Shown piece by piece: positions 5,108 to 51,796 of a stretch of 64,000 nt of DNA. Position numbers and translations under genes: made by a program. Numbering within the stretch: the first letter of the stretch is position 1; every line of letters starts with the position of its first letter. The stretch spans positions 1 through 64,000 of the forward strand of contig JAIBDZ010000009.1 in NCBI GenBank assembly GCA_024685975.1, written 5' to 3'. The stretch is from Piscirickettsiaceae bacterium (GTDB taxonomy: Bacteria; Pseudomonadota; Gammaproteobacteria; Nitrosococcales; Methylophagaceae). The notes under the pieces are model-generated. The model saw only the letters and a program-made list of their open reading frames with translations. It was not told the DNA's origin and searched no databases.

Positions 5108-7039
5108 CTATATTGACATACCTGGCAAATTAAATTGGAATGTCGTGCCACCCTGTTCATTGGCCTGCACGGTTAATTCGCCCCCATGTGAATCAATGAT
5201 TGAACGAATAATCGCCAATCCCATACCCATTCCTTCAGGTTTTGTAGTGAAGAACGGTTCAAAAATACGTTCAACTTCATCTTCGCTAATCCCAGGTCCA
5301 CTGTCATGAACAGAAACCATAATGCCTGAATCGTGACATAAACGGGATTCTAGAGTCAAACGACGCTCCTTCTTATCGAGGACTTGCATCGCTTCAATCG
5401 CATTTTTAATCAGGTTTACGATGACCTGTTCAATCAAAATTTGATCGACCTCTATTTGAGGTAAATTATTCGCTAACCGTAGCTGTAAATCAGGTTGACT
5501 ATCACGAATTTCAAGCTGCAAAAACCGGATGGCATTTTGAATAAGTTCGTTGATAGACACTAACTTACGTGAGGTTCCTTTTTTTACGAAATTACGTAAT
5601 TCGTGCATGATGGCTTGGGCACGAGTTGCCTGTGTGGAAATGTTTTTAAAGGCTGTATGCAAAGCCTCTTCATCCCCACGACCTTTCTCGATAAGGCGGA
5701 TACAGGCGCTACTATAAGTTTCGATCGAAGCCAGCGGTTGAGAGATTTCATGCGCCAATTGCGTACTCATTTCACCAATGGTGATGATGCGAGAGGCGTG
5801 CGCCGCTTCTAGCATGTGATGCAGTTTTACTTCTTCTTCATTTTTTGATTGTGTAATGTCTGCGGTTAATAAGAAAAAGCCAACGACACTACCGGTTTCT
5901 GAGAAGTTAGGTACATAAGAGCTTCGAATATAAACATCACCACGATAAGGGTAATTGAGTTTTTCTTCGAAAGTAATAGTTTTGCCAGACATAACTTGTT
6001 TGATATAGGGCGTAATCACTGAGTAAGGGCGTTCACCAATGACCTGCCAAATCTTTTTGCCTCTAATTTCATGGCGTGAAAAACCGAACCATTTTTCGAA
6101 GGCTTTATTATTAAATTGATAAGCTAAATCAGAGTCGACATAGGCAATTAATTCTGGAATGGCATCAATGACCAAACGCAATTGACGTTCTCTAGCTTGT
6201 AAGGCTTTTTCTGCTTTTTTACGTTTTATTTCTTCTAATACTTTGTCAGTCACTTCTTGCATGATCGCCGTCGCAATCGGTTCAGCGGTATGAATGGCTA
6301 ACAGTGAGACACTGATTTCGATATAAGATTTGAGCGCTAACGATTTGAGTGACACAACAATAGGGGCATTTTTTTCTTCGCCAGCCAATGCATTGTCGAT
6401 AAGCGTTTGAATGTTGTCGGTATCGTTAGGGGTGAAGAGGCTATGTAATTCAGTGTTGACTAGTGAGCGCTCACTTTGTCCCAAGAGTAGCTGAGCACTA
6501 CGGTTAAGGTTAAGAATTCGGCCATGAGAGTCGAGATTTAAAATGCCAATGGGAATACGGTCAAGTAACTTATCTAAATAATTTGCCACCAAAGGACGAG
6601 TCGGGGCGATAGCGCTACGTTCTTTTTCCACCACTTCGATGGTGGACTTATATTGTCGTTGTTTTTCAATGCTGGTTAATAATGATTGGAGCTTTTTTTG
6701 TAAACTCTCACAATCATTATATTCAAATGAAGTAACATCAGAGTTTAAAAATGGCGAGAATTGAATCGCCTTTTGCAGTGTATTTTGTCGACCATCTTTA
6801 CATAGAATGACGATCTTAATTTCTCGTCGTAAAACGAGAATATGCTCAGCGGTTCGAATTGGATCTTCGACATCCAACCCCAAGACGATGATGTCTGGTT
6901 TGCCGACGGTTTGCTCTAAACTCTTATATAAATGCTGAGGCAAATCATTGTGTTCTAGGAACACGCCTGCGCTAAGATTTGTATTGAGATGATTGAGTAC
7001 GTCTTCGCCAGTTGCAAGTAGTGATATTCTGCTGCTCAT
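5108..7039 (-). CDS. FixL-like PAS sensor histidine kinase
   Basis: The 643-residue protein has no clear membrane segment, so it is probably a cytoplasmic sensor. Residues about 1-125 resemble a receiver domain, but the expected phospho-Asp and Lys are not in place (VLGLDVEDP, ILCKDGR), so it is probably a degenerate receiver. Two PAS domains follow (about 155-265 and 285-400). The dimerisation helix has phospho-acceptor His430 in LAHEISQPLASI, and the ATPase domain has NLIKNAIEAM and HDSGPGISEDE. This H-box places it with FixL and TodS. It overlaps the acyl-CoA-dehydrogenase-like gene upstream by four bases (ATGA), showing an operon with the regulator downstream. The PAS ligand cannot be told from sequence. 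Confidence 0.87.
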   Translation of the reverse strand: MSSRISLLATGEDVLNHLNTNLSAGVFLEHNDLPQHLYKSLEQTVGKPDIIVLGLDVEDPIRTAEHILVLRREIKIVILCKDGRQNTLQKAIQFSPFLNSDVTSFEYNDCESLQKKLQSLLTSIEKQRQYKSTIEVVEKERSAIAPTRPLVANYLDKLLDRIPIGILNLDSHGRILNLNRSAQLLLGQSERSLVNTELHSLFTPNDTDNIQTLIDNALAGEEKNAPIVVSLKSLALKSYIEISVSLLAIHTAEPIATAIMQEVTDKVLEEIKRKKAEKALQARERQLRLVIDAIPELIAYVDSDLAYQFNNKAFEKWFGFSRHEIRGKKIWQVIGERPYSVITPYIKQVMSGKTITFEEKLNYPYRGDVYIRSSYVPNFSETGSVVGFFLLTADITQSKNEEEVKLHHMLEAAHASRIITIGEMSTQLAHEISQPLASIETYSSACIRLIEKGRGDEEALHTAFKNISTQATRAQAIMHELRNFVKKGTSRKLVSINELIQNAIRFLQLEIRDSQPDLQLRLANNLPQIEVDQILIEQVIVNLIKNAIEAMQVLDKKERRLTLESRLCHDSGIMVSVHDSGPGISEDEVERIFEPFFTTKPEGMGMGLAIIRSIIDSHGGELTVQANEQGGTTFQFNLPGMSI

Positions 7040-8199
7040 GTATCCGCTAAAAGTGGTTGCTCAAGTATTGAACGACCAGTCCATATCCTTAAAATATCGG
7101 TCGTTGGCGTCATGACATGTGCAGCTCGTGCGTCACGTAAAAGACGATCTAATGTTGATCCTTCGCGGTAGGCATAACCACCGCAGAGCGTCATTGATTC
7201 ATTCACAATTTCAATCACCGAGTCTGCGACTTCGGCTTTGGCTGCAAATAAGTCGACAAGGTTATGATCTTGGTCCATGTCATAACATTTTGTTGCATAG
7301 TGCACTAAAGCGCGTGAACGAGCATATTTTGCCCATAAATGGCCGAGTCGATATTGAATAACAGATGAAGAGGCGAGGGCGCGACCATTAAAAGAAAATT
7401 CACGGTTTTTAATATGATTAATCACTTCTTCAATCGCAGCTTTAGCAATACCTAAATAACTGCCAGCCATTGAAGCGAGGAAGTAGGGAGTAATAATATT
7501 GAAGACATACCAAATTTCATCACCAAACTCCCCCAAGACATTTTCACTTGGGATCTTCACATCTTCTAAGAATAAATTACGGGTACTATTGCCTCGTAAG
7601 CCAAGCCCATTCCAATGCTCTCCCCATTGCATGCCTGGCGTAGAAGCATTGGCCATAAAGCAGTTGAATTGTTCACCCGGCGTAGATGAGTTTTCGGCAA
7701 CAGCTGAGATGATATAAGAATCAGCTTGGCCGCCATTGATGACAAAAGATTTGGCACCATTGATGTTGTATTCAGTTTCAGAGTGATATTGCATTCGTGT
7801 TTCTGGCAGATAATATTGCGAGCCAGAGCCGACTTCACTTAATGCGATGCTGGTTAAATGTTTGCCTTCACAGATAGGCTTTATATATTTCTCAAGTTGG
7901 AAATCAGTCACTTTAGATGCAATTACTGCACTGCCGACAGCATGCATGCCAAAACAGACGGAGGTATTTGTACAATATCTGGCAATAATTTCGCTGACTT
8001 TGGCTAAGGTTTGTGTTCCTTGACCAAGACCGCCATACTCAACTGGCACGGTTAAGCCCCCAAAGCCTTCTTTTTGAAAGCTGCGTACAGAGAGTTCAGG
8101 CCAACGCGATAAGCGGTCCGTATTGCTGGCTTCTCCCTCAACCACTTGTTGACAGATAGTTTCAATCGTTTCCAGTATTTTTGATTGATCAGTGTACAT
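7036..8199 (-). CDS. Acyl-CoA dehydrogenase-superfamily flavoprotein lacking the usual catalytic glutamate
   Basis: The 387-residue protein has the acyl-CoA dehydrogenase fold: the SEVGSGSQ flavin-binding region, a central beta domain and the C-terminal CGGYAYREG...RDARAAHV segment. Where medium-chain dehydrogenases carry the catalytic Glu in YEGT, this protein reads MTPTTDIL. The alternative Glu position of isovaleryl-CoA dehydrogenases also appears to be absent. It may therefore be a flavin monooxygenase or another non-dehydrogenase member, as seen for DszC-like relatives. It is the first gene of an operon with the sensor kinase and regulator (ATGA overlap), an unusual association. The family is secure; the reaction is unknown. 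Confidence 0.75.
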   Translation of the reverse strand: MYTDQSKILETIETICQQVVEGEASNTDRLSRWPELSVRSFQKEGFGGLTVPVEYGGLGQGTQTLAKVSEIIARYCTNTSVCFGMHAVGSAVIASKVTDFQLEKYIKPICEGKHLTSIALSEVGSGSQYYLPETRMQYHSETEYNINGAKSFVINGGQADSYIISAVAENSSTPGEQFNCFMANASTPGMQWGEHWNGLGLRGNSTRNLFLEDVKIPSENVLGEFGDEIWYVFNIITPYFLASMAGSYLGIAKAAIEEVINHIKNREFSFNGRALASSSVIQYRLGHLWAKYARSRALVHYATKCYDMDQDHNLVDLFAAKAEVADSVIEIVNESMTLCGGYAYREGSTLDRLLRDARAAHVMTPTTDILRIWTGRSILEQPLLADT

Positions 8200-11786: not shown

Positions 11787-12686
11787 TTATCTCAGTGCAT
11801 CGGCAAAGTGTTCTGACAATAAATCAATCACCGTTGTCGAACGGTAGCTCGAACGCCAAACCAAACCTAACTCTCTGACCGGTTTCTTTTTCGCTAATAA
11901 GGGTAATAACGTAATATCGGCATGTGTGACCATATCGGAGCTGATGGCCATTTCTGGAATTAAGGTGACACCTAAGCCGCCTGCGACCATTTCAATCAAT
12001 GTATACAAGCTTGTTCCTTGCATGCTGGTACGCTGACTACTGGCTGGTAACTGGCACGCGCTTAATGCATGCTCTCGTAAACAATGTCCTTCTGTTAATA
12101 ACAGTAATTCATTAACAGGCAGCTGCGATGCATCTAATGCCTCGCTGTTGGCGAGAGGGTGATTTTTCGGTAAGGCAACCCAAAATGTTTCTTCGGCAAA
12201 GATTTGATGTGCCAAGTGACCAATATCGAACGGAAATGCCATGATGGCTAAATCGATATCGCCTTCATTTAATTGTTTGACTAAGCGTTCGGATTGCTCT
12301 TCGATCAAGACAAATTCTAGCTGCGGTAATTGTTGTCTAATATTGCGTAACGATTTTGGTAATAAGAAAGGGCTAATACTGGGGATCACGCCAATCCTTA
12401 ATCGGCCTGATAAAGGATTGGTTTCTTGTTGTGCGACCTCAACCAAATCGGCAGATAAAGATAAAATATGTTGTGCGCGCTCGGCTATTTCTTTCCCTAA
12501 TGCGGTGACAAGGACTTTTCTATTCGTTCTCTCTAATAACGGAGCCCCTAATAAGGTTTCGAGATCTTGTATACCTGCGCTCAAGGTGGATTGGGTGACA
12601 AAGCATTGCTCTGCAGCACGACCAAAGTGCTTTAATGACACAACGGCAGTTAAATAACGAAGTTGTCGTAATGTAGGCAAGCTCAT
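11787..12686 (-). CDS. oxyR: OxyR-type LysR-family transcriptional regulator
   Basis: The 299-residue protein has an N-terminal winged helix (about 5-65) and a LysR effector domain. It has the redox signature EGHCLREHALSAC, in which the two cysteines match the peroxide-sensing disulfide pair of Escherichia OxyR. It is therefore probably the hydrogen peroxide sensor that switches on antioxidant genes. No catalase or ahpCF gene is adjacent. It is divergent from recF, about 165 bases apart. Confidence 0.85.
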   Translation of the reverse strand: MSLPTLRQLRYLTAVVSLKHFGRAAEQCFVTQSTLSAGIQDLETLLGAPLLERTNRKVLVTALGKEIAERAQHILSLSADLVEVAQQETNPLSGRLRIGVIPSISPFLLPKSLRNIRQQLPQLEFVLIEEQSERLVKQLNEGDIDLAIMAFPFDIGHLAHQIFAEETFWVALPKNHPLANSEALDASQLPVNELLLLTEGHCLREHALSACQLPASSQRTSMQGTSLYTLIEMVAGGLGVTLIPEMAISSDMVTHADITLLPLLAKKKPVRELGLVWRSSYRSTTVIDLLSEHFADALR

Positions 12687-43284: not shown

Positions 43285-43361
43285 GGGCCTATAGCTCAGT
43301 TGGTTAGAGCAGTCGACTCATAATCGATTGGTCCCAGGTTCAAGTCCTGGTGGGCCCACCA
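43285..43361 (+). tRNA. ileX: tRNA-Ile2 (anticodon CAT, lysidine-modified)
   Basis: The 77-base cloverleaf includes an encoded CCA. The acceptor GGGCCTA pairs with TGGGCCC; the anticodon loop CTCATAA gives CAT. The body and location directly after rpoD match Escherichia ileX, whose CAT anticodon is changed to read AUA, rather than methionine tRNA. Anticodon and T-stem features agree with this. Confidence 0.9.
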
Positions 43362-43378
43362 ACTTATTCATAGCATGC

Positions 43379-44329
43379 TTATGGGATTAACCCTTTGCTA
43401 GCTAGCTTGTTTAATACATCCGCAGATTGTTCTTTTAAGAAATCTCGTAACAATCGAACGGCTGGTGTGATGGACTGCCGACTCGGGCAAATTAACCATA
43501 GATCTGTTGGTTTAGGTTGAAACTCAGGCATGACATTGACCACATTCCCTGAAAGCAAATCACCACTCATATCAAGACAAGACTTTGTCGCGATACCTTT
43601 TCCTGACACACACCATCGCCGTACCAGATCGCCATCATTTGATGTTCGGTTACCATTCACTTTGATTTTGTATTGTTGTTTTCCATCGGTAAAAGTCCAC
43701 ACATCGTGCACAATATCGTGTAACTGATAAAACAAACCATTATGCGTCACTAAGTCTTGTGGGTGCTGTGGTGTTCCATATTTATCCAAATACGCTTGGC
43801 TGGCACAGAGGCAACGCGGCACAGGACAAATAATATAACCATATAGATTACTATCAGTCGGTGAGCCATAACGTAATGCGATATCAACCGGATCGCGATA
43901 AAAATCAATGGTGCTATCGCTTAGGTGTAATTTGAGGCTAATTTTAGGGTTAGCGTCCATAAACTCATCTAACCAAGGAAGAATGATATTACGGCCAAGA
44001 TCAGATGAAATAGCGATGCGTAACTCACCTTCAATCAGGCCCGGCTGGTCTTTCATCTCTTGCCGTGCTTGATTTAATAACGCTAAAGCTTGTTCACATT
44101 GCGGGATATATTTCTCTCCGGCAGTCGATAACCGTAATTTGCGAGTAGACCGAATAAATAATTCTGCGCCTAATGCTTTTTCAACCCGTTTTAAGGCGGC
44201 ACTTGCTGTAGCCGTATGCATATCTAAGCTTTCAGCGGCAGCGGTAATATTACGAAACTGGGCCACCTTCAATACGATGTTTAAATCTTCTAGCTGCATA
44301 TTTTCAATATATTTTTGATAATAATTCAA
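43379..44329 (-). CDS. LysR-family transcriptional regulator
   Basis: The 316-residue regulator has an N-terminal winged helix (LNIVLKVAQFRNITAAAESL) and a LysR effector domain. It is divergent from the zinc-free oxidoreductase gene at 44406, which is probably its target. The ATG may be either the first or the MQLEDLN Met ten codons later, which matches the usual LysR start. The effector is unknown. Confidence 0.88.
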   Translation of the reverse strand: MNYYQKYIENMQLEDLNIVLKVAQFRNITAAAESLDMHTATASAALKRVEKALGAELFIRSTRKLRLSTAGEKYIPQCEQALALLNQARQEMKDQPGLIEGELRIAISSDLGRNIILPWLDEFMDANPKISLKLHLSDSTIDFYRDPVDIALRYGSPTDSNLYGYIICPVPRCLCASQAYLDKYGTPQHPQDLVTHNGLFYQLHDIVHDVWTFTDGKQQYKIKVNGNRTSNDGDLVRRWCVSGKGIATKSCLDMSGDLLSGNVVNVMPEFQPKPTDLWLICPSRQSITPAVRLLRDFLKEQSADVLNKLASKGLIP

Positions 44330-44405
44330 ATACTACCCTGTTTATCTATGCAGTATCAATCGCTATTCTATTGCTACTTGTTAACAATATGACGTGGAGA
44401 TAAAC

Positions 44406-45431
44406 ATGAAAGCCGTTGGATACGAAAACGCATTACCAATTAGTGACGCAAATGCCTTATTAGATATTGAGTTGCCAAGACCTATCCCGACAGGTCGAGA
44501 TTTATTAATAAAAATCCATGCGATTGCGGTGAATCCAGTCGATTACAAAATCCGCCAAAGTACATCGCCAGAAAAGGAACAATATAAAGTGATTGGCTGG
44601 GATGCCGTCGGTGAAGTTGTTGCCTGCGGAGAAAGTGTCGAGCACTTTAAACCGGGTGACACAGTGTATTACGCGGGTGATTTGACGCGTATGGGCAGTA
44701 ATGCCGAATATCAACTTGTCGACGAACGCATTGTGGGTCATAAACCTAAAAGTCTGACCAACGCTGAAGCCGCTGCCTTACCTTTAACGTCGATTACAGC
44801 GTGGGAATTATTGTTTGAACACCTTGCCTTACCGCTGCAACCAGTGGCGTCAGTAGAAAAATCCGATGACGTGTTATTGGTTGTCGGCGCATCAGGTGGC
44901 GTGGGGTCGATTTTAGTGCAGTTAGCAAAAGCATTAACAGGCGCGACCGTGATTGGCACAGCATCACGACCTAGCTCTCAAGCTTGGGTGAAAGAGTTGG
45001 GAGCAGATTATGTCATTGATCATACGAAACCATTACAAGATGAGTTGGCTGCCTTAGGCATTACAGAAGTGACGCATATTGCCAGTTTAAATAGTACCGA
45101 CACCTACTTTGATGCTTATATTGAGCTATTAACGCCTTTTGGCAAAATCGGCATGATAGATGACCCCGCTGCTTTAGATGTGATGAAAATAAAAGGTAAA
45201 AGTTTGTCGTTGCATATCGAATTTATGTTTGCCCGTTCTATGCATAATGCAAAAGACATGATTGAACAAAGCCGATTATTGAATCGTATTTCAGACTTAA
45301 TTGATCAAGGCAAACTAACAACGACAATGGGCGAGAACCTCGGCACAATTAATGCCAAAAACTTGAAAGCAGCTCATGAGAAGCTAGAAAGCGGAAGAGC
45401 GATTGGCAAAATCGTTTTAGAAGGTTTTTAA
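44406..45431 (+). CDS. Medium-chain dehydrogenase/reductase, quinone oxidoreductase-like
   Basis: The 341-residue MDR-superfamily oxidoreductase has the nucleotide-binding GASGGVGSILVQLAK and a GroES-like N-terminal domain with NPVDYKIR. It lacks the zinc ligands of true alcohol dehydrogenases, so it probably reduces quinones or enals with NADPH. ATG 44406 has GGAGA five bases upstream; an in-frame GTG at 44394 is less likely. It is divergently paired with the LysR gene. Confidence 0.88.
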   Translation: MKAVGYENALPISDANALLDIELPRPIPTGRDLLIKIHAIAVNPVDYKIRQSTSPEKEQYKVIGWDAVGEVVACGESVEHFKPGDTVYYAGDLTRMGSNAEYQLVDERIVGHKPKSLTNAEAAALPLTSITAWELLFEHLALPLQPVASVEKSDDVLLVVGASGGVGSILVQLAKALTGATVIGTASRPSSQAWVKELGADYVIDHTKPLQDELAALGITEVTHIASLNSTDTYFDAYIELLTPFGKIGMIDDPAALDVMKIKGKSLSLHIEFMFARSMHNAKDMIEQSRLLNRISDLIDQGKLTTTMGENLGTINAKNLKAAHEKLESGRAIGKIVLEGF

Positions 45432-45713
45432 ATGACAAGTTATTACGGTTGGAATGGTTTTTTATGATGGCGTTCTTTAAAGGTCATACATGAAGTTATT
45501 CACAGTATGCAGGGGGTAGTTTTATATACAAATAAGTCGGTTGTTAGCCATCATCAAGAGACCTGTGTATGATACGGTAATTACAAATGAGGCAAGCTAG
45601 GTTTAAAGTGCTGATTATATTGGTTTTCTTAGGTGAGAAAAGGTGCTCTTTTCTTTCTATCACGAGATGAGCTGTAGCCTTGCTAAGTAAATAACAGAGA
45701 GATATTCTGGATT

Positions 45714-46487
45714 ATGCACAGTAAAGAGGCCGCTTTCATTGAGTGTATTCGCTTAAAAGCTTTGGCATCCGATGCCGTTAATCACCCTTATTTAACGGCT
45801 TTTTGTCATGGCGAATTTCCAGACATGACTGCGGCGATCCAAGACTTTGCTTTTCAATATGGCCTTTATAGTCGTCAATTTGTGCGATATTTATCTGCCG
45901 TCATTAAGCAATTACAGCAACAAAAACATCGCGAAACCCTAATCGAAAATTTGACGGAAGAGCAAGGGGATACCCACGGTATTGAGTTGCCAGAAGCAGT
46001 GTTAATGACAGTCACAGGCGTGCCGCATACACAATTGTTTCAGCGCTTTCAAACCGCCGTTGGCATTGATAACCAATACCGTACAACCATGCCTCAAAGT
46101 CCAACAGCACAATTGTGGAGTGAGCAGTTTTTACAATTATGTGAGATGGATGAGTGCGTTGGTATCGGTGCGATAGGGATTGGTACCGAATTGATCGTAT
46201 CGAGCATTTATCATCAGATCCTTGAAGGATTAAAAAATCATAGTGACTTAACGATGACAGAGCGGGTGTTTTTTGATTTGCATAGCCAATGTGATGATGA
46301 GCATGCGGTTGAGATGTTATTGATTGCACAAGATTTGGCCCAAGACGATATGGCGTGTGAAAAGATTGAATATGGCGTCAATATGGCCATAAAAATGCGA
46401 ACGCTTTTTTGGGATAAAATGCTAGAACGTGCGTTGGGTTTTCCCGCGTCAGCTACGATAGAAACACAGAGGTTATCCATTGTTTGA
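45714..46487 (+). CDS. Haem-oxygenase-like di-iron oxidase (HDO superfamily, CADD/UndA-like)
   Basis: The 257-residue all-helical protein resembles the TenA/PqqC-fold iron-containing redox enzymes. The expected di-iron ligands are present: Glu82/Glu83 and His88 in NLTEEQGDTHG, Glu159 in GTEL, and His190, Asp194 and His197 in LHSQCDDEHA. The H-x3-D-x2-H spacing is that of CADD and other HDOs. Such enzymes do oxidative decarboxylation, C-C cleavage or N-oxygenation on amino- or fatty-acid-derived substrates. It heads a three-gene operon with a methyltransferase and an A-ACP protein, so an ACP-bound substrate is plausible. The product is unknown. Confidence 0.78.
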   Translation: MHSKEAAFIECIRLKALASDAVNHPYLTAFCHGEFPDMTAAIQDFAFQYGLYSRQFVRYLSAVIKQLQQQKHRETLIENLTEEQGDTHGIELPEAVLMTVTGVPHTQLFQRFQTAVGIDNQYRTTMPQSPTAQLWSEQFLQLCEMDECVGIGAIGIGTELIVSSIYHQILEGLKNHSDLTMTERVFFDLHSQCDDEHAVEMLLIAQDLAQDDMACEKIEYGVNMAIKMRTLFWDKMLERALGFPASATIETQRLSIV

Positions 46488-47229
46488 TACTGAAAAAGTC
46501 TATGATGACAATGCCAAAAAATGGCTCCGATTAGTACCTAGCTCATTATCTGATTTTACCGCTCGTCCTTTTGTTTTTGAGGCCTGTGGTGATGTGACGG
46601 GTAAAGCTGTTCTAGATATCGGGTGCGGAGAAGGATATTGTGCGCGCGAGTTAAAACGTCGAGGCGCCGGTGACTATCTTGGCATTGATTTATCATCACA
46701 GATGATTGATGCCGCCAAAATACAAGAGCAACAAGACCAGTACGGTATTGACTATCAAGCGGGTCATGTCACGGAGTTTGTGCCGACACGCCACTATGAC
46801 CTGTGCATTGCGGTATTCCTGTTTAATTACTTACGTGTAGAAGAAATGCAGCAAGTTTTTGCCATGGTTTATGATGCTTTGGCGCCGGGAGGCGAGTTCA
46901 TTTTTAGCGTGCCGCACCCACTCTTTCCTTTCATGCAAAAACAAAAAGCCGCGCCTTTTTATTTTGATGCCATCGATAAAAACTATTTCACTTCGGTGAA
47001 TGAGCAATTAGAAGGCGAAATATGGAAGCAAAATGGCGAGCCATTACATGTGCAATGTGTACACAAAACCTTCACCGATTATTTTGACAGCCTTTCTTCG
47101 GCTGGGTTTAACACCATGCCAGTAGTGAAAGAGCTGACGGTCACGCCAGCATTAGTCGAACAAGATGAGCCATTTTTCGGGCCGTTACTTCATCAGCCAC
47201 TTCATGTTTTATTCAAACTATCTAAGTGA
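46480..47229 (+). CDS. Class I SAM-dependent methyltransferase
   Basis: The 249-residue methyltransferase has SAM-binding VLDIGCGEGYCARELK near residue 42. It uses a TTG start inside the end of the HDO gene (eight-base overlap) with AGAGG at good spacing, showing coupled translation. Its place between a di-iron oxidase and an adenylation-ACP protein suggests a tailoring role in a small-molecule pathway. The methyl acceptor is unknown. Confidence 0.83.
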   Translation: MFDTEKVYDDNAKKWLRLVPSSLSDFTARPFVFEACGDVTGKAVLDIGCGEGYCARELKRRGAGDYLGIDLSSQMIDAAKIQEQQDQYGIDYQAGHVTEFVPTRHYDLCIAVFLFNYLRVEEMQQVFAMVYDALAPGGEFIFSVPHPLFPFMQKQKAAPFYFDAIDKNYFTSVNEQLEGEIWKQNGEPLHVQCVHKTFTDYFDSLSSAGFNTMPVVKELTVTPALVEQDEPFFGPLLHQPLHVLFKLSK

Positions 47230-47243
47230 GTATGATTCTCACT
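47225..47243 (+). other. Hairpin at the methyltransferase stop / ligase start junction
   Basis: Perfect 6-bp arms AGTGAG / CTCACT enclose TATGATT. The hairpin contains the methyltransferase stop codon and ends one base before the next ATG, which has no Shine-Dalgarno sequence. It may tie translation of the ligase gene to ribosomes finishing the upstream gene. Confidence 0.4.
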
Positions 47244-47244
47244 G

Positions 47245-49926
47245 ATGGACAATCAACAAAATCGTGACAGCACGACAGGGCTTCCGAAGACATTAATCGA
47301 ACGCCTGTTTTATTTTGCCCAAACGACACCATCACAGGGTGCGGTTGTCACACATGACATGACCCTCTCCTATGCCCAACTCGCATTGGTGGTGCAAAAG
47401 CAGGCATATCAGCTGAGATTACAAGGCATTGAAGCGAATACCGTCGTGGGTATTCAATGCGCGGATGATGTTGGACATTTAATACTGACATTAGCAGCAT
47501 GTTATCTAGGGGCGAGATCTTGTACGGTACCGACCTATGATGAGTTACAGGTTCAAGAAGGCATCATTTCACGTTGCGGCGTGACAATCGTATTAGATGC
47601 CAGCGCCGTTATTGATTTACACCAAAGACAAAATTTACCCACAATAGAGATTGAGAGGGCTTTGCAATCTAGTATTGTTTTTGCCACATCAGGCTCAACG
47701 GGACAACCTAAATTAGTGTTGTACTATGACGCTGATTTGGTTGCACAAGCCCATCGGCATATTAGCGGTTCACATGAGCGTTTTACTTGCCGGGCAGCGA
47801 TGGAACATAATTTTGCTAAACGACACCGGCTTTTTTGTTTAGCGATGGGGGCTAGCAACCTATTTTTGCGTACCCAACAAGAGTCATTAATAGAGGATTG
47901 CCTCAAGCTCAACGTGAACGTCATGCATGTGTCTTCATTTCAAGCCCAAGAGTTATTACATCATCCTGAACGCGGCCAATTGGCTTCTATTCGCTTGAAG
48001 TTAGGAGGCTCTCATATTCCCTTGGCACTGCGTGAGCAATTGCGAACAAACATCACGTCACAGTTGCAAGCAGGATATGGCACAACGGAAACGGGTGCGA
48101 TCGCTTTTACTGATCCAGAGGATCTGGAGGCGGGAGAAAGTGTCGGTAAAGCTTTGCCAGGAGTGACGGTACGGGTAGTTGATGCGGATAGAAATCCACT
48201 CCCTTTAGGCCAAAAAGGCGAGCTCGCTATTCATGGGGAAGGCTTATTCCGTGGTTATTTAGGCCAAGCAGAATTAACTGACAAACGCCTAGATAAAGGC
48301 TGGTTCTATACGGGTGATATAGGGTATCTCGATGCACAGCATCGTATTCATCTCAGTGGCAGAATCGATGATATGTTTACGTTTAATAGCATCAATATTT
48401 ACCCGCAAGAAATAGAAGCAGAAATACGCCAGTACCCTGATGTTGTTGATACGGTTGTATTACCGAAAGATTCCTCAGTACATGGGCAAATCCCCGTCGC
48501 TTTGGTCGTTTTTAATAAAGATGCTAAACCTAAAGTGACGGCGCTTGAGGCTTTTATGCAAAAGCGAGTGGGACTGAGAAGTCCAAAACATTACACTATT
48601 GTTGATGCTATTCCGACTAATACAGCGGGCAAAGTATCCAGAGTCGCTGCGGCTAAATTAACAGAGCAAAGTGATGTGCTAAGGCGACAAATTGTCGATC
48701 TGATCGAGGATAAGTATAAGGCACAGATAAAAGCGGCTCACATCACCGAATTTATTGCCGGTAAGCGCGACATATCGTTGAATAAATTCAATATGGACTC
48801 TTTGGCGAGAATGAGTTTATTAGTGTCATTAGAGATCCATTACGACATCATCATTTCCCCTCAAGAACTGGCTCGCTTACGGACATTAGGCAAATTAGCC
48901 GCCAGAGCGTTAATGCTGTCTAAAAGCAAAGCTGAGACGAATGTAAGCCTTAAGCATTACTTTGATGTGTCAATGAACGATATGGACGATAAACCCTATA
49001 TCGTGCGTTTTTTCCAACGTTTGTATCGTTACTGTCCGACGGTGACATTATTAAACCAAACTTTTGCCAAGTTAGAACACCGATTATGTCCACAAGATAT
49101 CTCTTGTTTGGCGCAATACCATGAGAAAAAAGCATTACTTCCTGCTGATGCGGAAAGTAAATTTTATCAGGCGGTGACTGTTTGGTTAAATGAAACTCAA
49201 ACACTGATGTTAAATAGCGGCCGTCGTCATTTAAACTCATTTTCTGCTCAGAAAGTGGGAGTCGGAATGATCTTGTTTTCTTCGTCAGATAAGACAGCGG
49301 AGAAAACATTATTGATTGTTTTTCCGCCGAGAGGCATTCGGCACTTAATGATGCCGAATGCGGTGTTATTGCAGCATATCGATGAGCAACAATATGATCT
49401 ATTGATGATGCCTGATAGAGAGTATCGTTTCGGAGCAGGGGCGCTGATACGAACAACACAATGGTTACAGCAGCAAACATGGTACCAATCTTATGCTAAC
49501 GTTCGGACACTAGGCTTGAGTGCCGGTAGCTTCCCCGCGATGATGATGGGATCTTTATTACAAGCTGAAATGATGTTGAGCATTGCTGGCCGTTTCCATA
49601 AAAAAAAGCATTTTATCGTTAATGCGGACAAAGTCATCACAAGCTGGCGGCTTAGAAAGCAAGCTTATCGTCATAAATTGATATTAAGTTATTCGATCAA
49701 TAACAAGAGAGATAGCCGCTTCGCACGGTTTTTTAATAAAATGTACCACGGTAAAGAAGTCGCTATTTCGGTACAAGATGAAACCTTGCCCCATTTAATG
49801 CTGAGAAGGTTAGCTGAACGAAGTGAGTTAACGCCATATTTGGACAATACACTTTTTGCTCAACCAGATGAGGTGAGTTTGGCCAATTATCAACAACGTC
49901 GCATCATGCATTTTCCATTGACTTAA
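47245..49926 (+). CDS. Adenylation-ACP-alpha/beta-hydrolase trifunctional protein
   Basis: The 893-residue protein has an N-terminal acyl-adenylating domain (about 10-490) with FATSGSTGQPK, GYGTTETG, YTGDIGYLD, the SGRIDDMF hinge and PTNTAGKVSR with the catalytic Lys. A carrier domain follows (about 490-555) with phosphopantetheine Ser519 in NMDSLARMS. A C-terminal region (about 570-893) has a nucleophile elbow GLSAG (Ser759), suggesting an alpha/beta-hydrolase or thioesterase-like release domain. It is thus a one-module loading, carrying and releasing enzyme without condensation. It works with the di-iron oxidase and methyltransferase genes upstream. The substrate acid and the product cannot be inferred. 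Confidence 0.78.
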   Translation: MDNQQNRDSTTGLPKTLIERLFYFAQTTPSQGAVVTHDMTLSYAQLALVVQKQAYQLRLQGIEANTVVGIQCADDVGHLILTLAACYLGARSCTVPTYDELQVQEGIISRCGVTIVLDASAVIDLHQRQNLPTIEIERALQSSIVFATSGSTGQPKLVLYYDADLVAQAHRHISGSHERFTCRAAMEHNFAKRHRLFCLAMGASNLFLRTQQESLIEDCLKLNVNVMHVSSFQAQELLHHPERGQLASIRLKLGGSHIPLALREQLRTNITSQLQAGYGTTETGAIAFTDPEDLEAGESVGKALPGVTVRVVDADRNPLPLGQKGELAIHGEGLFRGYLGQAELTDKRLDKGWFYTGDIGYLDAQHRIHLSGRIDDMFTFNSINIYPQEIEAEIRQYPDVVDTVVLPKDSSVHGQIPVALVVFNKDAKPKVTALEAFMQKRVGLRSPKHYTIVDAIPTNTAGKVSRVAAAKLTEQSDVLRRQIVDLIEDKYKAQIKAAHITEFIAGKRDISLNKFNMDSLARMSLLVSLEIHYDIIISPQELARLRTLGKLAARALMLSKSKAETNVSLKHYFDVSMNDMDDKPYIVRFFQRLYRYCPTVTLLNQTFAKLEHRLCPQDISCLAQYHEKKALLPADAESKFYQAVTVWLNETQTLMLNSGRRHLNSFSAQKVGVGMILFSSSDKTAEKTLLIVFPPRGIRHLMMPNAVLLQHIDEQQYDLLMMPDREYRFGAGALIRTTQWLQQQTWYQSYANVRTLGLSAGSFPAMMMGSLLQAEMMLSIAGRFHKKKHFIVNADKVITSWRLRKQAYRHKLILSYSINNKRDSRFARFFNKMYHGKEVAISVQDETLPHLMLRRLAERSELTPYLDNTLFAQPDEVSLANYQQRRIMHFPLT

Positions 49927-50155
49927 AGTTAAGCCGTGTTCGAGGGGCGCGAGTCGTCAAAGTCTTGGTTATAAAATCAATGCATAAAGCCGCAGGTTTT
50001 CCTTTGTTAATGTCATTTAGACGAAGCGTAAAGAAAGAAAAATTGACCTAGAGCTAATTCAGCGCCCATCGCCTAGTGTTTTTTGGCAACAAATGTGATA
50101 AAACTGAGTCAAAAGAAGTGTCTGCCTATGACTTGATACCGATAAGGAACTGCGA

Positions 50156-51796
50156 ATGAAAACGTCAGATTTATTTGTTAAGGCGCTGGAAAATGAAGGA
50201 GTCGAATATATTTTTGGCATTCCCGGCGAAGAGAATCTGGATTTTCTTAACTCGATCAAGTTATCGTCTATCCGATTAATAGTCACGCGCCATGAGCAAG
50301 CAGCTGGATTTATGGCGGCAACGTATGGCCGACTGACCGGTAAACCAGGCGTTTGTTTGTCGACACTTGGCCCTGGGGCGACCAACTTTGTGACCCCCGC
50401 AGCATATGCACAATTAGGCGGAATGCCGATGCTGATGATTACAGGCCAAAAACCGATTAAATCAAGCAAACAAGGCCAGTTCCAAATCGTCGACGTCGTT
50501 AATATGATGAGGCCGATTACTAAATACACCAAGCAAGTCGTCCATGGAAATAATATTGCTGCGATCGTAAGAGAAGCGTTTCGCTTGGCGACAGATGAAC
50601 GCCCGGGTGCTGTTCATATTGAGTTGCCAGAAGATATTGCAACAGAAGAAGCCGAAGATTTTGTTTACCCCGTTGCGACAACAAGGCGACCCGATGCCGA
50701 TGCCTTAGCAATCAGTATGGCTTTAGATATGTTAAAAGAAGCCAAAATGCCGTTATTGTTGATTGGTGCAGGGGCGAATAGAAAGCGAGCCAGCAATGCG
50801 TTGACCATGTTCATTGAAAAAACGGGCATTCCGTTTTTTAATACGCAAATGGGAAAAGGGGTGGTCGATGAGCGGAATGAAGCTTATTTAGGTACAGCGG
50901 CATTATCTGAACATGACTTTTTGCATTGTGCGATAGATCGGGCCGATGTGATTATCAATATTGGTCATGATGTCATTGAAAAACCGCCATTCTTTATGAA
51001 GAAAGGCGGATCGAAAGTGATTCATATTAACTTCCAACCAGCGCAAATTGATCCCGTGTATTTCCCCCAATTAGACGTAGTGGGGGACATTGCGACATCG
51101 ATTCATCGTTTAACACAAGGGTTAGCCAAACAAGACCATTGGGACTTTTCTTATTTTTATCGTGTAAAAGAAGAAGTGCAGATACGGTTATCGCGTTATA
51201 GCGAAGACACACGTTTCCCCATGTTACCGCAGAGCATCGTTAATAAAATCCGACTTGTGTTGGATGATGATGGCATTGTGACATTGGATAATGGGATTTA
51301 TAAAGTCTGGTTCGCACGGAATTATCTATGTTATGAAAATAACACGCTATTACTCGACAACGCGTTAGCAACGATGGGTGCTGGCTTGCCATCAGCGATG
51401 TTGGCCAAATTGATTAACCCAGATAGAAAAGTCATCAGCGTCTGTGGCGATGGTGGTTTTATGATGAATTCGCAAGAGTTAGAAACAGCGGTCAGGTTGA
51501 AACTTGATCTGGTTATCATCATTATTAATGATAATGCCTACGGTATGATCAAATGGAAACAACAAGGCATGGGGTTTGATAATTTTGGTTTAGATTACAA
51601 CAACCCAGATTTTGTTAAATATGCAGAAAGTTATGGAGCGAAAGGGTATCGGCCGACGAGCCATGCTGATTTTGCAGATATTTTGCGTACAACGATTAAT
51701 GAAAAAGGCGTTCATCTAATTGATTTAGCGGTAGATTATTCATTAAATCATTCGATTCTCAATGAAGGTCTTAAAGAAAAAATTTGTATTTTATAG
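50156..51796 (+). CDS. Acetolactate synthase-like thiamine diphosphate enzyme
   Basis: The 546-residue TPP enzyme is related to the acetolactate synthase large subunit. The catalytic Glu is in TRHEQAAGFMAA, the TPP-Mg motif in GDGGFMMN and downstream NDNAYGMIKW. No small regulatory subunit gene is adjacent, so a catabolic or standalone role is more likely than branched-chain amino acid synthesis. It starts with AAGGA ahead of the ATG and is followed after 18 bases by an aldehyde dehydrogenase gene, forming a pair. Confidence 0.87.
   Translation: MKTSDLFVKALENEGVEYIFGIPGEENLDFLNSIKLSSIRLIVTRHEQAAGFMAATYGRLTGKPGVCLSTLGPGATNFVTPAAYAQLGGMPMLMITGQKPIKSSKQGQFQIVDVVNMMRPITKYTKQVVHGNNIAAIVREAFRLATDERPGAVHIELPEDIATEEAEDFVYPVATTRRPDADALAISMALDMLKEAKMPLLLIGAGANRKRASNALTMFIEKTGIPFFNTQMGKGVVDERNEAYLGTAALSEHDFLHCAIDRADVIINIGHDVIEKPPFFMKKGGSKVIHINFQPAQIDPVYFPQLDVVGDIATSIHRLTQGLAKQDHWDFSYFYRVKEEVQIRLSRYSEDTRFPMLPQSIVNKIRLVLDDDGIVTLDNGIYKVWFARNYLCYENNTLLLDNALATMGAGLPSAMLAKLINPDRKVISVCGDGGFMMNSQELETAVRLKLDLVIIIINDNAYGMIKWKQQGMGFDNFGLDYNNPDFVKYAESYGAKGYRPTSHADFADILRTTINEKGVHLIDLAVDYSLNHSILNEGLKEKICIL

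Follow-up and report, generated by a model that had tools for sequence, protein, structure and literature searches.

We analysed a 64,000-nucleotide stretch of DNA from a Piscirickettsiaceae bacterium (GenBank assembly GCA_024685975.1, contig JAIBDZ010000009.1, positions 1 to 64,000 of the forward strand; hereafter the window). It carries a three-gene cassette for a heme-oxygenase-like dimetal oxidase/oxygenase (HDO), a methyltransferase and a single protein that joins an adenylation (A) domain, an acyl carrier protein (ACP) domain and an alpha/beta-hydrolase domain (A-ACP-hydrolase). The cassette consists of the following parts:

45714..46487, forward strand: HDO, 257 amino acids (open reading frame, Pfam, model and CADD alignment)
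46480..47229, forward strand: class I S-adenosylmethionine (SAM)-dependent methyltransferase, 249 amino acids, TTG start (open reading frame, Pfam)
47245..49926, forward strand: fused adenylation-ACP-alpha/beta-hydrolase protein, 893 amino acids (open reading frame, Pfam, AlphaFold2 model, alignments)
47290..48669, forward strand: adenylation domain, residues about 16-475, with predicted pocket N189, F190, R193, H228, K252, G254, G277, A285, I286 and K463
48799..48801, forward strand: codon of Ser519, phosphopantetheine site of the ACP (Pfam, alignments)
49222..49923, forward strand: alpha/beta-hydrolase domain, residues about 660-893, triad Ser759, Asp823, His850 (model, alignments)

The three genes lie head to tail, with an 8-bp overlap between the HDO and methyltransferase genes and a 15-bp gap before the A-ACP-hydrolase gene. 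Open reading frames, Pfam matches and models agree with the initial annotation, which had read here overlapping or near-touching genes with HDO ligands, a SAM methyltransferase and an A-ACP-hydrolase with Ser519 and Ser759. In Pfam the HDO matched PF14518 (Haem_oxygenas_2, 9e-20) and PF03070, the methyltransferase PF13649 (5.2e-19), and the A-ACP-hydrolase PF00501 (3.2e-43), PF13193 and PF00550 (0.00017). No condensation domain was found in the A-ACP-hydrolase by the Pfam scan, and its last 218 residues matched no Pfam family above cut-off. Of the other window genes 21 were scanned, and all have housekeeping, regulatory or common metabolic roles. A promoter and terminator scan gave a signal about equal to that of shuffled sequence.

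An A-domain pattern scan of the species genome collection gave 21 loci, and the 12 closer ones (L029-L040) comprised seven complete fused cassettes, two complete split ones, two at contig edges and one degraded. The split cassettes (L039, L040) have all the parts but encode A separately, and their HDO and methyltransferase genes run convergently from the opposite strand. L032 is cut by a contig edge and its assembly shows no HDO at all; L038 is likewise cut, and its HDO and methyltransferase start sit at the edge of another contig, L077. The degraded locus L031 (9070-12164) has no adjoining HDO, has lost the methyltransferase start and is broken in frame near residue 817. A profile search of 390 genomes of Zhongshania's order found 11 with an HDO at 1e-25: four were already known (L034-L037), three held new complete cassettes (L093-L095), one the variant without A-ACP-hydrolase described below (L096), one an HDO with no methyltransferase in the fetched stretch (L097), and two distant HDOs without methyltransferase (L098, L099). 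Complete cassettes were found at 13 loci, window included. The arrangement is not due to chance, because the full set recurs at these loci, and the three genes are indeed conserved together as the initial annotation had required. The A, ACP and hydrolase parts are fused where the HDO and methyltransferase share the operon, and unfused in the convergent loci L038-L040. HDO and methyltransferase distances were correlated (r 0.90 for 16 loci, and 0.63 when restricted to the 11 fused cassettes).

The records with the cassette bear the titles Cellvibrionales, Pseudomonadales, Spongiibacteraceae, Porticoccus, Zhongshania, Salinisphaerales, Gammaproteobacteria and, once, uncultured bacterium; one is titled Planctomycetota, which may be a binning error. 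Genes outside the cassette did not recur among the loci compared, with three exceptions: two Zhongshania loci, an rpsU-yqeY-dnaG-rpoD block close to the window cassette and to L037, and one outer gene common to L029 and L048. Relatives of the methyltransferase at 1e-30 were found in the own genome only, out of 398 in a phylum sample. The hydrolase half was found at the class level in the own genome and, as 2 weak matches besides, among 369 genomes, and at the order level in the own genome and G012 (a set without HDO) among 63. HDO matches at 1e-3 were seen in 18 of the 369 genomes of the class, the own one among them; for the 17 others, short pieces of about 2.5-3.6 kb contained no match to the methyltransferase. 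No plasmid record covered 80% of the query P0003, and viral contigs gave no match to six short peptide patterns, a weak test.

The cassette is a union of two modules, HDO-methyltransferase and A-ACP-hydrolase, and this modularity of the gene set is what is new here. In the nine more distant loci, L041-L049 (9/9), separate relatives of A, ACP and hydrolase were present with no HDO match and no close methyltransferase relative in the fetched piece; the only methyltransferase match among them was weak (E 0.001) and far from the trio, in L041. Several of these loci are cut by contig edges, L049 has a broken A frame and L041 has two A genes. An HDO of the cassette kind was found at 1e-10 in none of the nine genomes, with the profile that finds the HDO in Zhongshania's order. 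These HDO-less trios occur in Devosia, Sphingomonas, Thiobacillus, Porticoccus and others, and have their own pocket code. Beside the trio of L048 there is a lone condensation domain; this locus has the same matches as L006 from the window's genus-mate G012.

The other module was found without A-ACP-hydrolase in three clusters. In L076 (5641-9484) the HDO and methyltransferase genes are divergent neighbours, in the same genome (G429) as the degraded L031; in L080 (9266-12981) they are adjacent, on the Indioceanicola profundi megaplasmid NZ_CP030127.1; and in L096 (2939-8939) they lie about 4.4 kb apart in one cluster. The HDO ligands are retained in all three. Whole-record searches for an A-ACP-hydrolase gave only A-domain relatives at 28-34% in G1030 (L096) and the L080 plasmid, and only the degraded copy and two A relatives in G429. 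Each cluster encodes an ATP-grasp-like protein (the other two share 37% and 48% identity with the L076 protein in BLAST), of which only the one in L096 reaches the Pfam cut-off (CPSase_L_D2), and a 2-oxoglutarate-oxygenase-like protein with an invariant HxD...H pattern (43% and 44% identity, no Pfam match at cut-off).

The initial annotation had proposed that one acid is loaded, oxidised, methylated and released, perhaps as a volatile or signalling metabolite. In this order the A domain would load the acid, the HDO would oxidise it and the methyltransferase methylate it on the ACP, and the hydrolase would free a small acid. Such a scheme accounts for activation and hydrolysis on one protein with no condensation or acceptor gene, and agrees with the fusion of A-ACP-hydrolase where the other two genes are in the same operon; the chm pathway, which has two oxidases and a hydrolase beside its A enzyme and ACP, works so (PMC10849742; here and below the articles are cited from extracts). 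However, the HDO-methyltransferase pair need not act on this carrier, because it occurs with its ligands intact in three clusters without A-ACP-hydrolase. All nine HDO-less trios have the hydrolase although their genomes have no such HDO, and plain hydrolysis there would merely reverse the loading. The presumed seventh-ligand place of the HDO has no carboxylate (cf. PMC11611611). While the dedicated cassette and the single acid of the proposal are supported, the on-carrier order is weakened, and we consider it possible but rather unlikely.

The neighbours of the HDO-methyltransferase variant bear on a further reading. In L080 genes for FlgK, flagellin and a glycosyltransferase are followed by the cluster and then by genes for a TylF-like methyltransferase and a DegT aminotransferase. 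Near L076 two GT2-domain proteins are encoded, and a GT2 glycosyltransferase, a sulfotransferase and an asparagine synthase in L096. Genes for RgpF, glycosyltransferase or sulfotransferase flank L040, a complete split cassette, as well as L045 and L046. As a precedent, Shewanella modifies its flagellin with the help of a methyltransferase and an ATP-grasp protein (PMC3765264). The HDO and methyltransferase may thus prepare an acid that serves as acyl decoration for a cell-surface glycan or flagellin, attached to a sugar by the A-ACP-hydrolase or, in the other variant, by the ATP-grasp-like ligase. This overlaps with the explanation favoured below, of a free acid that is oxidised and methylated before it is activated and transferred. 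Against it, no glycan gene was seen among the scanned neighbours of the fused cassettes L029, L030, L033, L034, L035 and L037 and in the window (one to few proteins per locus), and we regard the decoration as doubtful. It is similarly unlikely, though worth stating, that HDO-methyltransferase is a portable building-block module which has been joined in evolution to two unrelated acid-activating systems, A-ACP-hydrolase on one side and ATP-grasp with 2-oxoglutarate oxygenase on the other, and decorates surface glycans or flagellin with an unusual, oxidised and methylated acyl group. If true, this would be the first HDO in surface decoration among the literature matches listed, and the free-standing cassette would be its mobile form.

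The model of the HDO (pLDDT 91.0, 10-row alignment) has a heme-oxygenase-like helical fold, and Foldseek matched it to CADD (1rcw, 7e-8), BesC (1.2e-6), UndA (2.9e-5) and also HrmI. The metal ligands, located through the CADD alignment, are E83 (or the neighbouring E82), H105, E159, H190, D194 and H197, and are invariant in 17/17 HDOs aligned. The 3-His/3-carboxylate set with HX3(E/D)X2H is present as H190-X3-D194-X2-H197; the second ligand is displaced by a loop to H105, and H88 is not conserved among the 17 HDOs. The modelled fold and the aligned ligand set place the protein in the HDO superfamily, with binding of two metals and activation of O2 as predicted properties. Phe56 lies 27 residues ahead of E83 in all 17 HDOs, and the presumed seventh-ligand place, assigned by spacing only, therefore has no carboxylate. 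The AetD counterpart is F48, which precedes D76 by 28 residues; Glu takes this place in SznF and RohS. A hydrophobic residue at this extra-ligand place (aux alpha2) marks substrate-triggered HDOs (PMC11611611). Substrate carboxylates coordinate Fe1 in AetD, UndA, HrmI, PolF and MboA (PMC13185094).

Both sequence and fold make CADD the nearest solved relative. A further reading is that the cassette encodes an HDO pathway that is already known, such as CADD para-aminobenzoate (pABA) synthesis, UndA-type alkene formation or a ham/pvf diazeniumdiolate signal. CADD sacrifices Tyr27 and Lys152 in pABA synthesis (PMC11965152). The Tyr27 place is Leu in 17/17 HDOs, and Ile, Leu or Phe is found at that of Lys152 (position 169). 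Tyr43, the third residue essential to CADD, is replaced by Phe in the window HDO but kept as Tyr in some relatives. The NCBIfam CADD score of the window HDO was 67 against a cut-off of 200. Self-sacrificing pABA synthesis was rejected, as the sacrificed residues are missing. The ham/pvf signal was rejected on gene content, with a hydrolase instead of a reductase: the window operon lacks the AurF-like N-oxygenase and reductase-domain nonribosomal peptide synthetase (NRPS) given for ham in PMC11659414. Alkene formation from a free fatty acid, as by UndA, retains a small chance, the A-ACP and methyltransferase being unexpected there. Altogether a known pathway is very improbable.

The predicted A-domain pocket, N F R H K G G A I K, was identical in 16/16 cassette A domains examined. 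As a background, 107 of 445 scorable A-domain columns were invariant, and the cassette A-domain proteins fall to about 43% whole-protein identity to that of the window. To assign the pocket positions, the motif positions of PheA were transferred by hand and checked against a 4CL alignment. Position 235 in PheA numbering we take to be the place of the aspartate that is expected for alpha-amino acids and holds the amino group. This place is Asn in all 16 cassette A domains, so that the aspartate of NRPS-type alpha-amino-acid domains is absent and an alpha-amino acid as the A substrate is disfavoured. Asn at 235 is as expected of EntE/DhbE-type aryl-acid A domains, a comparison confined to this position. 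R, H and K occupy predicted pocket places in the cassette A domains. The A domains of the HDO-less trios have N for F and D for H in 7/7, and R for K and R for the second G in 6/7 (six loci; L043, L045 and L049 were outside the alignment). Because one pocket is shared by all 16 cassette A domains, the acid substrate is probably fixed, in line with the single acid of the initial annotation. Judged from the pocket residues, it would be one conserved, non-alpha-amino acid, perhaps polar or acidic.

The carrier DS motif with Ser519 is kept in each of the 13 fused proteins that were aligned. As modelled by AlphaFold2, the full A-ACP-hydrolase (pLDDT 86.7, 30-row alignment) has a C-terminal alpha/beta-hydrolase order, with Ser759 directly after strand 752-758, Asp823 after strand 811-817 and His850 after strand 837-843. 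The GxSxG nucleophile elbow and the Asp and His thus follow in the order of the alpha/beta-hydrolases. All three residues are kept in every complete hydrolase domain aligned (L031 is truncated; L041 and L045 were outside the alignments). The Foldseek search with the whole model was dominated by the A domain and gave MatB, 4CL, feruloyl-CoA synthetase and MenE, with EntE lower down. L009 (254-1252) also has, near a contig end, a hydrolase-domain relative that stands alone and keeps the Ser, the Asp and the His.

Our best, if still tentative, explanation is that a free acid is oxidised and methylated first and is then activated by the A domain and transferred. The HDO would probably use its dimetal site to bind a small (amino) acid through the free carboxylate and would oxidise the acid with O2, and the methyltransferase would methylate the substrate or the product. 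The A domain would then adenylate the resulting non-alpha-amino acid and load it onto Ser519 of the ACP, from which the Ser759-Asp823-His850 domain would pass the acyl group on, either to water or to an alcohol, amine or sugar as acceptor. The action of the first module on a free acid is suggested because the pair is kept where the A-ACP-hydrolase carrier is absent, because Phe56 stands in place of a carboxylate, and because the substrates of several HDOs coordinate Fe1 through their carboxylate (PMC13185094). Loading last and plain hydrolysis would undo the loading, which argues for acyl transfer to an acceptor (or for the on-carrier order). We infer the order of steps, the substrate class and transfer over plain hydrolysis from these points. 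The product is probably a small methylated acid, one fixed compound.

Several points weigh against oxidation of the free acid. Loading followed by plain hydrolysis would be futile if the HDO and methyltransferase finish first, and the scheme needs an acceptor that nobody has seen. The carboxylate may be masked before oxidation in the ATP-grasp variant, and in chm there is a known case of an acid that is loaded, oxidised on the ACP and freed by hydrolysis (PMC10849742). Phe56 was put at the extra-ligand place from its spacing in the sequence, and the pocket was mapped by hand from PheA motif positions. The carrier search in the Indioceanicola host of L080 was confined to the megaplasmid.

The cassette lies in a variable slot, the edges of which are:

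43285..43361, forward strand: tRNA-Met, downstream of rpoD, upstream edge of the slot that holds LysR, alcohol dehydrogenase (ADH) and the cassette (locus comparison)
50156..51796, forward strand: acetolactate synthase-like gene (ALS), downstream edge of the slot, outside the cassette (genus search)

In the genus stretches rpoD, tRNA-Met, ALS and aldehyde dehydrogenase (ALDH), with LexA where reached, keep their order where the slot could be read, which was in 5 of 14 fetched stretches; in the other nine no rpoD was found near ALS. The slot is nearly empty in two genus-mates, where tRNA-Met and ALS are about 185 bp (L072) and about 600 bp (L064) apart. A PAS/GGDEF gene and a neighbour occupy it in L062 and L063, and RuBisCO and kinase genes do so in L075; in the window (43285-50156) it contains LysR, ADH and the cassette. 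A mis-binned contig was rejected, as L062, L063 and L072 show the slot between the same genes in unchanged order: rpoD (85-87% identity where the gene is whole), tRNA-Met, ALS and ALDH. ALS was found in 26/29 genus genomes searched, own included, and in 14/14 fetched genus stretches, which are without the cassette. LysR and ADH are absent from those 14 stretches (tblastn, 1e-10) and may have come with the insert; neither has relatives among the genes of the other cassette loci compared. ALS, ALDH, LysR and ADH were rejected as pathway genes, ALS being genus-wide regardless of the cassette and LysR and ADH being without relatives at the other cassette loci.

L029, L030 and L037 likewise have a tRNA-Met within 0.4 kb of the cassette, each in a setting of its own; the scan of 12 further cassette loci, several of which are short, gave none. 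Upstream of the cassette of L029 lie a perfect 46-bp duplicate of the tRNA-Met 3' end (6998-7043) and a second, related copy (about 7189-7235), and the intact tRNA (12573-12649) is on the opposite side from the copies, a pattern as site-specific integration leaves. The window gave only a 10-bp match as an att-like repeat, at chance level, and no integrase was identified among the part of the flanking genes that was scanned. The cassette is self-contained, has a patchy distribution and has probably spread horizontally.

The HDO-containing gene set is real, conserved and not ordinary, and a dedicated small-molecule cassette, as the initial annotation had it, is supported. HDOs perform N-oxygenation, desaturation, C-C cleavage, methine excision and nitrile, alkyne and azetidine formation (PMC13185094, PMC10849742). 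Because this chemistry is so varied, an HDO found in an unfamiliar setting is a promising source of a new reaction. The cassette is small enough to be rebuilt whole in a laboratory strain, lacks conserved accessory genes and has the same acid pocket in bacteria that are far apart. Its two natural re-wirings make the HDO-methyltransferase chemistry testable on its own. Gene sets of this size may, we expect, escape gene-cluster tools built for larger assembly lines.

No known pathway matching the gene set was found in the family libraries and the literature among the matches listed, mostly non-subscription papers, and the nearest systems each share a part of it. CADD/NePabS is the closest solved HDO and its metal ligands align with those of the window HDO, but the sacrificed Tyr and Lys are absent here and the partner genes are others. 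The ham and pvf systems, with mgo as a further diazeniumdiolate cluster, resemble the cassette in having an HDO-fold protein (HamA) and a compact NRPS-like protein for a small signal metabolite. They differ in the AurF-like N-oxygenase, cupin, reductase-domain NRPS and valine substrate described in PMC11659414, whereas the window has no such genes and no Asp235. The mangotoxin genes mboA-F have an HDO beside ATP-grasp ligases, as in the second variant; there the HDO acts on a tripeptide with the redox partner MboB, there is no A-ACP-hydrolase, and a methyltransferase is unmentioned in the text (PMC13185094). Shewanella sfmABCDE resembles L080 in having a methyltransferase and an ATP-grasp carboxylate-amine ligase in a flagellin-modification operon, but no HDO is among the five gene products named in the extract (PMC3765264). 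Chalkophomycin chmF-J is alike in that the A enzyme ChmJ, the ACP ChmI, the oxidases ChmG/ChmH and the hydrolase ChmF produce and release one small acid (PMC10849742). It differs in its oxidases, annotated as acyl-CoA dehydrogenases, its proline substrate and its separate genes; the acid is re-activated by ChmK for the NRPS ChmL, and its SznF homologue belongs to the degenerate-HDO-domain group (PMC10849742).

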